From: an uncultured bacterium
GTDB taxonomy: Bacteria > Verrucomicrobiota > Kiritimatiellia > CAIKKV01 > CAITUY01
Direction of reading: 5' to 3'
Assembly: GCA_903895695.1 (NCBI GenBank)
Contig: CAITUY010000001.1
Location: 1-64,000, forward strand
Length of the DNA: 64,000 bases
In this document: positions 9,712 to 64,000 of the stretch, piece after piece
Layout: every line of letters starts with the position of its first letter
How positions within the stretch are numbered: the first letter of the stretch is position 1
Program-made: the position numbers and the translations under genes
Notes under the pieces: model-generated
Told to the model about the DNA's origin: nothing
The model's database searches: none
The model's input: only the letters and a program-made list of their open reading frames with translations

Positions 9712-10794
9712 TCAGTTGCCGGGCCGGGCGAGGATCTCAAGATCGGCGATGAGCGGGCGATGGGGCGAGCCGACGTCGGGACCGACCCAGCAGCGGCGAC
9801 AACGCCAGGCGGAGCCGGCCAGGATCTGATCAATGCGCGTCGACACCCACGGCGTGTGGTAGGTATGGCCGAAACCGCAGCCAGCCGTCGAAAAGGCATT
9901 GGCGAACCGCGACCAGCATTGACGGAGGATGACGCTACCCTGGGGGGTATTGAAGTCGCCGGCCAGCATCGTCAGGCGCCCAAGATCCTCCGCGTACCGG
10001 CCAATGATCCGGGACTGCTGGAGCCGCAGCAAACTATTGTCCTGGAGTTCCGCCGGCGCCGTCGGCGAATGCCAGCGGAGATCTTCGAGTTGCGGATGGG
10101 GTGAGGCCAGGCGAAGATTGATGAACGGCACTCGGCCGCCGGGCGTCTCCAGTTCATAGCGCACGGCCTCCCCGGGTTCTGGCCAGTGCTGCACCGCAAG
10201 ATTGTCCACCTTGAGGATGGGGAAGCGGCTGGCCAGCAGCAGTTCGCCAACCACGGAACAGTGCCAGTCACCGCGTCCGAAGGCGGGCAGGGGTTGCAGC
10301 CCCGACCATTCCTGGATCGCCACGACATCGGGCTGTGTCGCCGCAACGACCGCGGCCAATGCGCCGGCGTCCTGCCGGTGAAGGTTGCACGTCAGGACGC
10401 GAATGCGCTGGCCCGACTGAGAGTGGGGGATCGCGAGACGCCACGGAACTTGCAGGCCCAGCACCGGGAACAGGACGATCCAGGCGGCTGCCAGTAGAAC
10501 CCAAAGCGCCTGGCGGCGGACCCACGCGGCGGCGACCGCCAGGGGGAGCAAGGGCAGACTCCAAAGCCAGCAGGGACCGAACAGGAAGACCGTCGCCGGC
10601 CACCAGCGGTCGGCGGTCTCGCGTACGATCAGCCACAGCACCGCGCTGGCGATGCCGTACAGCCAGCAGGCGACGTCGACGAACCGGCGCAAACGCTGCG
10701 GGGTCTTGCAGGCAACGCGCACGCCGTAAATCATCAGGAAGAGCAGGAGCAGGACCGCCACTGCACCGATCCTTTTCAGGTTCATCGCGGACAT
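9712..10794 (-). CDS. Membrane-anchored endonuclease/exonuclease/phosphatase (EEP) family protein
   Basis: The 360-residue product begins with three or more membrane helices (about residues 8-110) followed by an EEP domain. The motifs RVLTCNLHRQD (metal-binding Asn), VVAIQEW (catalytic Glu), LAGDFNTPQGS and a C-terminal GPDVGSPHRPLIADL (Asp/His) match the family. The closest layout is membrane EEP proteins of unknown phosphodiesterase substrate. ATG 10794 is preferred to GTG-type starts inside the hairpin upstream; ATG 10785 is also possible. It lies 32 bases upstream of the transglutaminase gene on the same strand, so co-transcription is likely. Confidence 0.82.
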   Translation of the reverse strand: MSAMNLKRIGAVAVLLLLFLMIYGVRVACKTPQRLRRFVDVACWLYGIASAVLWLIVRETADRWWPATVFLFGPCWLWSLPLLPLAVAAAWVRRQALWVLLAAAWIVLFPVLGLQVPWRLAIPHSQSGQRIRVLTCNLHRQDAGALAAVVAATQPDVVAIQEWSGLQPLPAFGRGDWHCSVVGELLLASRFPILKVDNLAVQHWPEPGEAVRYELETPGGRVPFINLRLASPHPQLEDLRWHSPTAPAELQDNSLLRLQQSRIIGRYAEDLGRLTMLAGDFNTPQGSVILRQCWSRFANAFSTAGCGFGHTYHTPWVSTRIDQILAGSAWRCRRCWVGPDVGSPHRPLIADLEILARPGN

Positions 10795-10822: not shown

Positions 10823-11166
10823 GGCGAGCATGGATTGGATGGGCAGCGTCCCCGCGACCTCGTGTCGCGGGACGCCGAAATGGGAACACCCTATGGCACA
10901 AGACCGGGTGCACAGAATCGGAGAGGCGCCCCATGGGTCCCAGAAAAAGCAGCGGGTGGGTGAACCTTTTTCGGCGGTTGAGCGTTAGTAAGCAATAAGC
11001 ACCTGTCTGGAAGGCTATCTGCCCCTCGGGGAGCGGCGCGGCTTCCCGCGCCGGCCTGCCCTGAGTGCCATCGAAGGGCCGGAGCCGGAAGCGGCTCCGC
11101 TCCAGGCGGCAAAGGGTTCTTCGGATTGGCGCTGAGTAACGTAGAGGCAGAACCCGAGGGGGGAAC
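10823..11166. other. Divergent intergenic region of about 340 bases with a dispersed hairpin
   Basis: No coding region is supported here. It holds the palindrome at 10846-10875, a 23-base GC-rich hairpin at 11033-11055 that recurs with 21 of 23 identical bases at 27782-27804, and presumably the promoter of the gene at 11167. No -10/-35 pair was identified with confidence. AGGGGGG precedes the ATG at 11167 as a ribosome site. Confidence 0.5.
10846..10875. repeat. Dispersed 30-base hairpin repeat, copy 1
   Basis: The segment reads GCGTCCCCGCGAC-CTCGT-GTCGCGGGACGC, an inverted repeat with one extra C in the left arm. Its reverse complement recurs at 62707-62736 within the ccoN tail. Between copies, a C-G pair in one stem is replaced by G-C in the other, so both hairpins stay paired. 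This indicates selection on, or mobility of, the folded structure. Confidence 0.75.
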
Positions 11167-24849: not shown

Positions 24850-24898
24850 CTTGAAATTGATCGCTGCGTGTAGACGTGTCCACGAGTATGTCCTCGGC

Positions 24899-24950
24899 GT
24901 GGCACGGGCGTCCCGCCCGTAGCCGGCAACGGGCAAGATGCCCGTGCCAC
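24899..24950. repeat. Dispersed palindromic repeat with 22-base arms
   Basis: The arms begin GTGGCACGGGC and end GCCCGTGCCAC, with 19 of 22 positions paired around an 8-base loop. The element lies between the 551-residue ArsF-fusion gene and the ArsG-like gene. Such GTGGCACGGGC palindromes are frequently dispersed in PVC-type genomes, to my knowledge. Confidence 0.7.
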
Positions 24951-24951
24951 G

Positions 24952-48469: not shown

Positions 48470-48575
48470 GTAGGGCGAGGGCCTCCGGCCCCGCCGCGAC
48501 AGTGACGCGACAGGAGCGCAACAGGGACGGCGCGGCGAGGACCCGCCACGGGCGGGCAGGCAACCGTCGCCCCAC
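48470..48575. repeat. Dispersed GTAGGGCG-flanked palindromic element, copy A
   Basis: The ~106-base element starts GTAGGGCG and ends CGCCCCAC. Its core CCCCGCCGCGACAG and CGGCGCGGCGAGGA matches copy B at 60187-60300 with few differences. Arms can fold back on each other. It lies 33 bases after the oxidoreductase stop and ends before the larA start. Confidence 0.88.
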
Positions 48576-60190: not shown

Positions 60191-60300
60191 GGCGTGGGCG
60201 TCCCCGCCCCGCCGCGACAGAAACGAGACAGGATCGCAACAGTTGCGGCGCGGCGAGGATTCATCCTGAAGGTTCATCCTGAAGGACGCCGTCGCCCTAC
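60187..60300. repeat. Dispersed GTAGGGCG-flanked palindromic element, copy B
   Basis: The ~114-base element starts GTAGGGCG and ends CGCCCTAC. The core CCCCGCCGCGACAG ... CGGCGCGGCGAGGA matches copy A at 48470. It carries an extra tandem TTCATCCTGAAGG twice. Its first bases provide the TAG stop of the P-type ATPase gene. It lies between two converging operons. Confidence 0.88.
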
Positions 60301-61379: not shown

Positions 61380-61671
61380 GATGGACTCCGCGTGGCTTTC
61401 CACCACGAAGAACACGAAGGGCACGAACGTGCAGCGGAGCTTGGCGGCTCTTCGTGTTCTTCGTGGTGGATATCCCGATCGATGGAGGGCGCCGCTCCGT
61501 CGGCGCCGTGTCCGGCACGCCGCTGACCAGGGGCAGGCCGCGCGCCCGCTCCTGCTCGGAGAACTGGCCGGACCGAACGGCCCAGACCAGGATCGCCGAG
61601 ATGCCGATCACGGCCAGCACAGCGAAGGCGATCCACAGGTACAGCAGTTGCACGGACTCGGTCGGGTTCAT
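61366..61671 (-). CDS. ccoS: CcoS-type cbb3 oxidase maturation protein with a repeat-derived tail
   Basis: The 101-residue product starts at ATG 61671, overlapping the ccoO/P stop. WIAFAVLAVIGISAILVW is the single helix and AVRSGQFSE matches CcoS, which inserts copper and haem cofactors into the oxidase. CcoS proteins are usually ~50-70 residues. Residues ~68-91 are encoded by a 20-bp inverted repeat (STTKNTKSR and RALRVLRG), so the C-terminus is probably insertion-derived. Confidence 0.8.
   Translation of the reverse strand: MNPTESVQLLYLWIAFAVLAVIGISAILVWAVRSGQFSEQERARGLPLVSGVPDTAPTERRPPSIGISTTKNTKSRQAPLHVRALRVLRGGKPRGVHHDAP
61400..61469. repeat. Dispersed palindromic element with perfect 20-bp arms inside ccoS
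   Basis: CCACCACGAAGAACACGAAG and its exact reverse complement flank a 30-base loop. It lies in the 3' coding part of ccoS and supplies its last codons. Similar 'CACGAAGAACACGAAG' repeats are known to me from PVC genomes. Confidence 0.88.
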
Positions 61672-62660
61672 GGACGGACTCCTTTCGGCGCCAGGGACTG
61701 GAACGCGTTCGACCACGCCGGCTCGTAAGCCGCCTCGATCCCGCGCGGCGCCGTGCCGGCATCGGTGTAACCCAGGAAGCGGACCGCCATGAAGTTGGAT
61801 ACGTCCCAGATCTTTTCCGACTCCAGTTCATGTTTGAAGTAGGGCATGGCGGTGCCGGTGATGCCGTTCATGATCTGGTAGTAGAAGAGGCCTCCGACGT
61901 ACCGGCCCTGGGCAAGGTGGCGCTTGAGCGTCGTGAAATTGAGGGGCGGGGGCGAGAGGTATTTCTCCGCGACGCCTTGGCCATCGCCCACGGGCCCGTG
62001 GCAGTTCAGGCAGAAGCCCTCATAGATCTTCTGGCCCCGCTGCAAGGCGGCTTCCGTGGCGGGGTAGGGGTTGGGCATGGCCAGCCAGCCCGCCGGGACC
62101 TGGGCATGCAGCCAGTCAACGTTGACGTCCGGTCCGCCGGCATAGGCGCGGACGGCGGGTGCCTTCCAGCGTTGCTGGCGGGCCACACGGTAATCGGCAT
62201 CGCGGCTGCCCAGCGATTGCACGTAGGCGGTCAAGTTGGAAACGGCGGGCCAACCCAGGAATTCCCAGGATGGCATGAGCGAGAGCGGCCGCGTATAGCG
62301 CGGGTTGGTGAAGTGCGCCCAGTGCCAGTCGTCCGGGTGCTCGCCACCATCCTGCGACAGATCCGGTCCGGTCCGCTCGGTCCCCAGGATGGCGGGATTT
62401 TGTCCCGCGTAATCGCCTCGTTCGGCGATGCGGTCCGCGCCGAGGTCCCAGTCGGAGACGCGGACGTAGAGCGAGTGACAGTAACTGCAACCGTTCTTCA
62501 CGTACAGGTCGTGCCCGGCGGTTTCGGCAGACGTCCACGGACGCCAGGCGGTCGAGGGCGTTTCGGTCATCGTGATCGCCGGGAGGATGATGGCGACCAA
62601 GACAGAGGCCCAGAAGACGAGCAGGCTGCCGACCATGGCGAGGGCGGGGGTCATTTTCAT
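61668..62660 (-). CDS. ccoO: cbb3 oxidase cytochrome c subunit, CcoO with a CcoP-like second haem domain
   Basis: The 330-residue protein starts at ATG 62660 with AGGAGG upstream, overlapping the ccoN stop. An N-terminal helix (LVFWASVLVAIILPAI) precedes CSYCH (C58-H62) in NGCSYCHSLYVR, the CcoO/FixO haem motif, and a second CLNCH (C217-H221) as in CcoP. Axial Met candidates are LMPSWEFLG and AMPYFKHE. It receives electrons and passes them to CcoN. The fused or two-haem form replaces separate CcoO and CcoP. Confidence 0.9.
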   Translation of the reverse strand: MKMTPALAMVGSLLVFWASVLVAIILPAITMTETPSTAWRPWTSAETAGHDLYVKNGCSYCHSLYVRVSDWDLGADRIAERGDYAGQNPAILGTERTGPDLSQDGGEHPDDWHWAHFTNPRYTRPLSLMPSWEFLGWPAVSNLTAYVQSLGSRDADYRVARQQRWKAPAVRAYAGGPDVNVDWLHAQVPAGWLAMPNPYPATEAALQRGQKIYEGFCLNCHGPVGDGQGVAEKYLSPPPLNFTTLKRHLAQGRYVGGLFYYQIMNGITGTAMPYFKHELESEKIWDVSNFMAVRFLGYTDAGTAPRGIEAAYEPAWSNAFQSLAPKGVRP

Positions 62661-64000
62661 GGGGCGGCCTCCTGGTCCGGGACCGTCGCCGTGCACGACG
62701 ATTTTGGCGTCCCGCCACACGAGGTGGCGGGGACGCTGTTTGGCGCCGGGTGCAGTGAGGTCCCACACGAGGTGGCGGGGACGCTGCCTGGCGCCGGGCG
62801 TAGCGACATGATCGCAACGTAGAGGCCGATCGCGGAGGCGGCGAGGATGGACACCCCGAACATCGCGCGGAGCGCCATGTAGACGGCAATTTCGGGCAGC
62901 ACGCGGTAGACGGTCTCGCCGTTGTGCCAGGCTTCGCCCTGGATGAGCCCGGCCGCGGTCAGCACGGCGAAGAATCCCGCCAACCCGAAGGTCAGCAGCG
63001 CGAACTGCAGGTTCACGAGACGAGGCGAGTGCAGCGGGCGGCCGGTCACCAGGGGGAGGATGTGCCACAGGCCGCCGAGCGCGATCATCCCGGAGAACCC
63101 GAGCACCGCGATGTGGGCGTGGCCGATGGTCCAGTTCGTGAAGTGCGTGACCTTCTGGATACTCGGCAACGATTGGAGCGGCCCCTGAATGCACGTCACC
63201 AGGTACCAGGCCGTACCGGCCATGATGAAGCGGGCGGCCGGGTCACGCCAGAGGCGGGCGCCATGGCCCCGCGCGGTCAGCCACACGTTGACCAGCACGG
63301 TGAACACGGGCACGATCATGGCCACCGAGTCCACAACGGAAATCGTCTTCAGCCAGTTCGGGATGGGAGCTTGAAGGATGTGGTGGCCGCCAATGTGGGC
63401 GTACATCGAGACGAGCGTCCAGAATCCGATCAGCGAGAGCGTATGCGAATAGAGCGGCGTCCGGGCCACGCGCGGGACGACGTAATACACGACTGCGATG
63501 GAGAGGGGCGTGAGAAGCATGCCCACCAGATTGTGCCCGTAGAACCAGAGGAACACCGAGTCCAGCAGGCCAGGCAGCGCACCCGTCAGGGGATGCCACA
63601 TGACGTTGCCGATCGGGTAGTTGGCGGCCGACCACAGGCAGGCCCCAAGCGCGTACCACACCGACACGTAAAGGACGTTCTCGATGCGGGTGGCCACGGT
63701 CATCGTGAAGTTAACGATCATGGCCAGCATGGCCACCACGAGCGAGACGTCAAAGATCCACAGGTATTCGGCATATTCGCGGCCCTGGGTGAACCCGAAC
63801 GGGAACGTGAAGAAGCCGCTGAGAACGGTCAGGTTCCAGGAGAACCACGACACCCACCCGAGGCGCTCGGACCACAAGGGAGTGCGCAGCAAGGCCGGGA
63901 CGTAGTAATACGCGCACCCGATCAACGTGCTGGCTGTGAAGCCGAAGATGACCGTGTTGACGTGCACGGGCCGCGTCCGGCCGAACACCAGGAAAGGGAC
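62657..64000 (-). CDS. ccoN: cbb3 cytochrome c oxidase catalytic subunit CcoN (N-terminus beyond window)
   Basis: The frame is open to the end of the window, so the N-terminus is missing. Visible parts include YGHNLVGMLLTPLSIAVVYY, MYAHIGGHHILQAP (CuB His pair), and THFTNWTIGHAHIAVLGF (haem His ligands), all hallmarks of CcoN. It reduces O2 at a high-affinity haem b3-CuB site. The C-terminal ~35 residues (GSVPATSCG twice) come from tandem copies of a dispersed hairpin, so the tail is probably insertion-derived. Confidence 0.93.
   Translation of the reverse strand, partial: VPFLVFGRTRPVHVNTVIFGFTASTLIGCAYYYVPALLRTPLWSERLGWVSWFSWNLTVLSGFFTFPFGFTQGREYAEYLWIFDVSLVVAMLAMIVNFTMTVATRIENVLYVSVWYALGACLWSAANYPIGNVMWHPLTGALPGLLDSVFLWFYGHNLVGMLLTPLSIAVVYYVVPRVARTPLYSHTLSLIGFWTLVSMYAHIGGHHILQAPIPNWLKTISVVDSVAMIVPVFTVLVNVWLTARGHGARLWRDPAARFIMAGTAWYLVTCIQGPLQSLPSIQKVTHFTNWTIGHAHIAVLGFSGMIALGGLWHILPLVTGRPLHSPRLVNLQFALLTFGLAGFFAVLTAAGLIQGEAWHNGETVYRVLPEIAVYMALRAMFGVSILAASAIGLYVAIMSLRPAPGSVPATSCGTSLHPAPNSVPATSCGGTPKSSCTATVPDQEAAP
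62707..62812. repeat. Tandem copies of the dispersed 30-base hairpin in the ccoN 3' end
   Basis: The first copy, 62707-62736, is the reverse complement of 10846-10875 apart from a compensating base pair and an arm-length difference. A second, partial copy (ACACGAGGTGGCGGGGACGC) follows about 50 bases later with a shared flank GGCGCCGGG. Both are translated in the ccoN frame. Confidence 0.8.

Follow-up and report, generated by a model that had tools for sequence, protein, structure and literature searches.

Several kinds of mobile or repeated palindromes described in bacteria resemble the elements reported here. REPINs consist of two inverted REPs and a spacer, are dispersed and extragenic, fold as single strands, commonly carry compensatory changes and are linked in some genomes to a Y1 transposase (PMC3116915). 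REPs tagged by GTAG or CGTC are short palindromes with a conserved flank; REPs have been reported for the PVC superphylum, and a GGGGWSAS motif has been reported in the terminal inverted repeats (TIRs) of TIRYT genes (PMC3733652). The Y1/HUH enzymes TnpA-REP/RAYT and the TnpA of IS200/IS605 are associated with imperfect hairpins, of which an unpaired base and the loop are the likely recognition features (PMC8266576). For REPIN/RAYT systems in the Verrucomicrobia, PMC3733652 was the only literature that we found.

The window analyzed here, the whole stretch of 64,000 nt, harbors two copies of a hairpin, termed HP2, at distant positions. These copies, the other recognizable parts of the repeat and the adjoining genes are as follows, with the basis for each part of the repeat in parentheses:

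9712 to 10794, minus strand: endonuclease/exonuclease/phosphatase-family gene, its start 51 nt from the 10846 copy.
10846 to 10875, minus strand: HP2, the main hairpin, with 12 pairs, the 5-nt loop ACGAG and an extra G in the 3' arm (fold, covariance model).
10876 to 10886, minus strand: conserved flank or linker, with ATTTCG at the 5' foot of HP2 (alignments, with ATTT in nearly all copies of four genomes).
10887 to 10911, minus strand: degenerate HP1, the inverted partner hairpin, its loop CTTGT still recognizable (alignment with better-kept copies from the own genome and relatives).
61668 to 62660, minus strand: ccoO-like gene (FixO and cytochrome c), its start 47 nt from HP2.
62657 to 63988, minus strand: ccoN-like ORF of 443 residues, with the COX1 domain at residues 2-379; the two hairpin copies are read through by its last ~45 codons.
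62701 to 62706, plus strand: conserved ATTTTG at the 5' foot of HP2 (copy alignment).
62707 to 62736, plus strand: HP2 with the derived C-G pair (copy alignment, fold, covariance model).
62760 to 62784, plus strand: truncated second HP2, its 5' arm short by 3 nt and its derived 3' arm like that of the 62707 copy (48-bp tandem duplication; covariance model).

The 10846 copy reads GCGTCCCGCGACACGAGGTCGCGGGGACGC on the minus strand and the 62707 copy GCGTCCCGCCACACGAGGTGGCGGGGACGC on the plus strand. These 30-mers differ by exactly two mismatches, which are paired with each other within the stem (G-C to C-G), and both copies fold into one hairpin shape that leaves a single G of the 3' arm unpaired (-14.5 and -14.3 kcal/mol, z about -4.7), in agreement with the first-pass annotation, which had described two hairpins separated by a single stem-keeping swap. 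The 62707 copy carries the derived state at the swapped pair; among the 14 own-genome copies compared, its C-G pair is shared with one very divergent copy only. The similarity between the two loci spans 38 nt (92%), running past the hairpin because the flank ATTTYG is common to both. A covariance model built from 37 copies matches them with E values of 9e-13 and 4e-12, both copies belonging to its training set, and the next-best match in the window has an E of 0.39. The 62707 copy lies at the junction of the ccoN-like and ccoO-like genes, where no adjoining HP1 was recognized and where an empty-site comparison yielded no close ccoN in relatives. Between 62657 and 62794, the ccoN-like ORF is apparently extended by about 45 C-terminal codons through read-through of the hairpin copies. 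Elsewhere in the window, adjoining inverted arms at 24898-24951 (CGTGGCACGGGCGTCCCGCCCGTAGCC and GGCAACGGGCAAGATGCCCGTGCCACG) have the appearance of another REP doublet, and a 57-nt direct repeat (48485-48541 and 60203-60259, 86% identity) is made of GCGACAG-like units.

The hairpin initially described is real, but it constitutes half of a unit. In better-kept copies, HP2 is joined by an ATTT linker to another hairpin in inverted orientation, HP1, and the two form a REP doublet (REPIN). HP1 corresponds to an HP2-like REP in reverse complement, and the HP2 model matches it on the opposite strand with E values down to 1e-6. The two-locus view of the first-pass annotation hence holds for the hairpins themselves, but it missed the inverted partner, of which a degenerate form persists beside the 10846 copy, and the truncated third copy at 62760-62784. 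In S02.Bin004 (G007), a genome from the same taxonomic family as the window's organism, the doublet has the order CCCCGCCAC-CTTGC-GTGGCGGG, AACCGAACATTTTTGCGA, CCCGTGGC-ACAAG-GCCACGGGGACGC and is enclosed by TIRs (GGGTCAGTTA...TAACTGACCC). The doublet is bounded by GTAATGGGTCAGTTA...TAACTGACCCCTTAC-type inverted repeats in S02.Bin004, in a Lentisphaerae MAG and in one or more copies of genome G002; many copies that keep the doublet lack these outer repeats, and a search of the window's genome found none. For two complete units, the predicted fold is a three-way junction (z about -7). Nearly all of the aligned HP2 copies have the unpaired G in their 3' arm, and both the loop and the ATTT flank are conserved though unpaired. 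Cleavage of E. coli REPs depends on a bulge in the stem (PMC8266576), and on this basis it seems reasonable to regard the conserved extra G as a candidate recognition feature. The foot of the hairpin in the aligned copies is ATTTNN, with no GTAG tetranucleotide, and no unpaired CGTC is present at one end, the CGTC of the window copies being paired and not conserved outside their own genome; the repeat is therefore filed under neither tagged REP family.

A pattern search of the window's genome allowing up to three mismatches located 7 places (7-8 by pattern overall), with no matches for the reversed-pattern control. The genome-wide covariance-model search proposed in the first-pass annotation revealed 18 places in the same genome at E<=0.01, 11 of them below 1e-5, as well as 19 matches in G002 and 60 in S02.Bin004, the latter corresponding to 37 separate units because the model also matches the partner hairpin. 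Further copies were found in a second related genus and in a Lentisphaerae MAG. A scan of 84,980 species genomes, using a pattern in which columns 19, 21, 29 and 31 were left free, yielded 31 DNA stretches, 28 of which lie in three MAGs (Verrucomicrobia, PVC group and Lentisphaerae). The other three, from two Acidobacteriota MAGs and the Verrucomicrobia MAG UR.bin260, are devoid of the flank and the partner hairpin; the free stem pair is broken in the two Acidobacteriota matches, which were judged to be due to chance. Viral contigs presented no match to the repeat.

The 37 places in S02.Bin004 have unrelated flanks, and 11 of them hold a variant whose HP2 loop carries a 24-nt insert, implying that the changed unit itself was spread. 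At 11058-11082 of the window, the reverse complement of CTGCCCTGAGTGCCATCGAAGGGCC resembles the CCCTTCGACTTCGCTCAGGGC hairpin inserted in the HP2 loop of those 11 units. One S02.Bin004 unit, complete with its TIRs, has a PLP-enzyme gene on one side and an Rrf2-type gene on the other, and the same divergent gene pair occurs without it in the congeners G006 and G008, the flanks of which align. The pair also lacks the unit in the window's genome, which makes insertion likelier than loss. This single case demonstrates gain or loss of the unit and says nothing on the enzyme involved; by-eye inspection detected no target-site duplications. None of 20 S02.Bin004 copies falls within predicted genes, as compared with 80% of random positions (under an approximate gene prediction), and 8 of 9 copies in the window's genome lie outside genes, the exception being the 62707 copy, which overlaps the end of the ccoN ORF. 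The repeat was still moving recently in related bacteria, and the window hairpins are worn copies. The REP-type label of the first-pass annotation is well supported by this dispersal, together with the palindromic structure, the intergenic location and the covariation of the stems.

Across 31 distinct HP2 sequences, 93.3% of the stem cells pair and 30 cells present changes on both sides, as opposed to 9.9 in shuffles, and this excess is gone when the partner is slid by 1-3 columns. Since columns 19, 21, 29 and 31 were left free by the search pattern, the pairing observed there is not an artifact of the search. Within the window's genome, the inner stem displays nine double and two single changes, with 0.9 doubles expected if changes were independent (counts that ignore shared descent, so that the associated probability serves as a rough guide). 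Random stem-breaking changes are not what the copies reveal: only 2 of 112 inner-stem cells in this genome are broken. Pairing is therefore maintained across the family, and both selection and templated correction fit as its cause. The first-pass annotation had presented the swap between the 10846 and 62707 copies as direct evidence that the fold is maintained. The swap genuinely exemplifies a property of the whole family, but it is weak evidence when taken alone, because template-switch correction or different source elements could give the same result; the case is made by the dozens of related copies.

The REP-associated tyrosine transposase suggested in the first-pass annotation was sought in the same genomes. 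The window's genome encodes five Y1_Tnp genes, none of which was found to have a hairpin of the family beside it. A Y1/HUH transposase of ~310 aa, with an extra N-terminal part, is present in S02.Bin004, G002, G001 and the Lentisphaerae MAG, but it was found neither in the window nor in the remainder of its genome (94.6% complete). The homologs share 65-71% identity with the S02.Bin004 protein, the HxH motif and the Tyr are invariant in the four genomes and Y1_Tnp is matched over its cut-off. The NCBIfam RAYT model NF047646, however, gives 19-21 bits against 80 in two proteins, and we refer to the enzyme as RAYT-like because the RAYT and IS200 models both score below cut-off. All four enzyme genes adjoin hairpins with a similar loop. 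As assessed with model R1, trained without the transposase loci, the Lentisphaerae MAG has an inverted family doublet immediately ahead of the enzyme's start codon, with another hairpin further upstream (E values from 4e-7 to 4e-5), and a single weaker match lies beside the gene in G002 (E of 2e-4). In S02.Bin004 and G001, the hairpins next to the enzyme gene share the loop and the design but yield no covariance-model score, and the model finds no hairpin in G001. The enzyme-hairpin pairing suggested by these sequences is an association rather than proof of action, and a partial one, given the missing enzyme in the window's genome and the lack of a model-scoring hairpin in G001. In the window's genome, the copies are few and degraded and the search found no cognate enzyme, so that the repeat looks relict there. 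Two other Y1 transposase genes have repeats of their own: L070 (G000:C81) has repeated GAATGTGGGAGGGGCGCTCCGCGCGCCGA on its flanks, which looks like a REP system of its own, and the frame of L075 (G002:C7) contains in-frame translated repeats (KVDGASRPVSSTDTSRDGSST), seemingly REP-derived.

In our view, the window hairpins are most probably old non-autonomous copies, and now relics, of a REPIN-like family of mobile DNA in Verrucomicrobiota and Lentisphaerae that was mobilized in trans by a RAYT-like enzyme. A complete unit, with its two inverted homologous REP hairpins, its AT-containing linker and, in some genomes, TIRs, would fold from one strand into a three-way junction. A single-stranded stage, such as the lagging-strand template, would expose the hairpin to a Y1/HUH tyrosine transposase acting in trans, which may recognize it by its shape, the 5-nt loop and the unpaired G, then nick the unit and re-insert it between genes. 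If the stem were read mainly as a duplex, its bases could drift as long as pairing was kept, and swaps like that between the 10846 and 62707 copies would be tolerated for this reason; selection through recognition would then keep the pairing.

The covariation of the stems could also arise with no selection on the fold if the repeat is real but one arm was copied to the other during replication by quasi-palindrome template switching, an explanation that we consider possible but not likely. Identity-extending mutations between the arms of imperfect inverted repeats have already been attributed to this process (PMC3820800), and the nine doubles observed against 0.9 expected are predicted by templating as well as by selection. 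Efficient templating, however, should erase both the extra G seen in nearly all aligned copies and the unpaired state of columns 14 and 37 in 20 of 31 distinct rows, features whose persistence speaks against it, and it does not account for the conservation of the unpaired loop and ATTT flank. A different division of labor, in which the units are MITE-like and are moved through their TIRs (GGGTCAG...CTGACCC) by the other, TIRYT-type Y1 transposases of these genomes, with the REP hairpins as passengers, seems to us rather unlikely. It draws on the fit of GGGTCAG to the GGGGWSAS motif of TIRYT TIRs (PMC3733652), on several Y1 genes (C66, C83 and L110) with GGGTCAG/CTGACCC at both ends and on the inclusion of the TIRs in the unit gained at the empty site; yet many copies keep the doublet without the outer repeats, and it is the doublet, not the TIR, that is shared with the window's genome and that the Lentisphaerae MAG has beside its conserved Y1 gene.

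That the hairpins are RNA structures (attenuator, terminator or mRNA stabilizer) selected at each site is improbable, in spite of the strong and conserved stem and of the location of both window copies about 50 nt from a gene start, one of them at the ccoN-ccoO junction. The orientation relative to neighboring genes differs between the two copies, the flanking genes are unrelated, no T-run follows the stem, an Rfam search of the window returned zero matches and one copy is absent at orthologous sites. The RNA-structure option offered by the first-pass annotation hence finds no specific support. Chance similarity among GC-rich palindromes was refuted: although the genome is GC-rich and a chance match to the short core of the motif occurs about once every 64 kb at two mismatches, the control pattern gave no matches, the model E reaches 1e-12, the ATTT flank is common to the copies and relatives harbor many of them.

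These results place a covarying REPIN-like family, along with a candidate enzyme, in a group of bacteria on which we found little described, and in a form that does without GTAG, a tag considered necessary for single-strand REP enzymes. A natural set for following insertion, excision and stem drift is provided by S02.Bin004 and its congeners, and the window's genome represents the decaying end of the same family.

The repeat displays most of the defining features of REPINs, being a dispersed and extragenic palindrome arranged in inverted doublets, and it shares with them the single-strand fold, the compensatory changes and, in part, the link to a Y1 transposase in some genomes. It differs from the REPINs described (PMC3116915) in the TIRs present in some genomes, the conserved AT linker, the lack of GTAG, the low copy number and the PVC host. 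Like the GTAG/CGTC-tagged REPs (PMC3733652), it is a short palindrome with a conserved flank, but it has no unpaired GTAG, and the CGTC that is paired in the window copies is replaced in relatives by GCGA, GCGC, GCGG or GCAT. The GGGTCAG of its terminal inverted repeats, which fits GGGGWSAS, is reminiscent of TIRYT elements (PMC3733652), whereas the unit encloses a REP doublet instead of a transposase. With TnpA-REP/RAYT and the TnpA of IS200/IS605 (PMC8266576), the repeat has in common a Y1/HUH enzyme and an imperfect hairpin that is probably recognized by its loop and an unpaired base; the ~310-aa enzyme is set apart from theirs by its long N-terminal extension and by scores under both curated NCBIfam cut-offs. 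On a tentative and rather doubtful reading, the combination may amount to a distinct class of single-strand mobile unit, in which a REP doublet nested in TIRYT-like TIRs forms a three-way junction, is recognized without GTAG through the ATTT linker, the loop and the bulged G, and is moved by undescribed long Y1/HUH enzymes of PVC bacteria.
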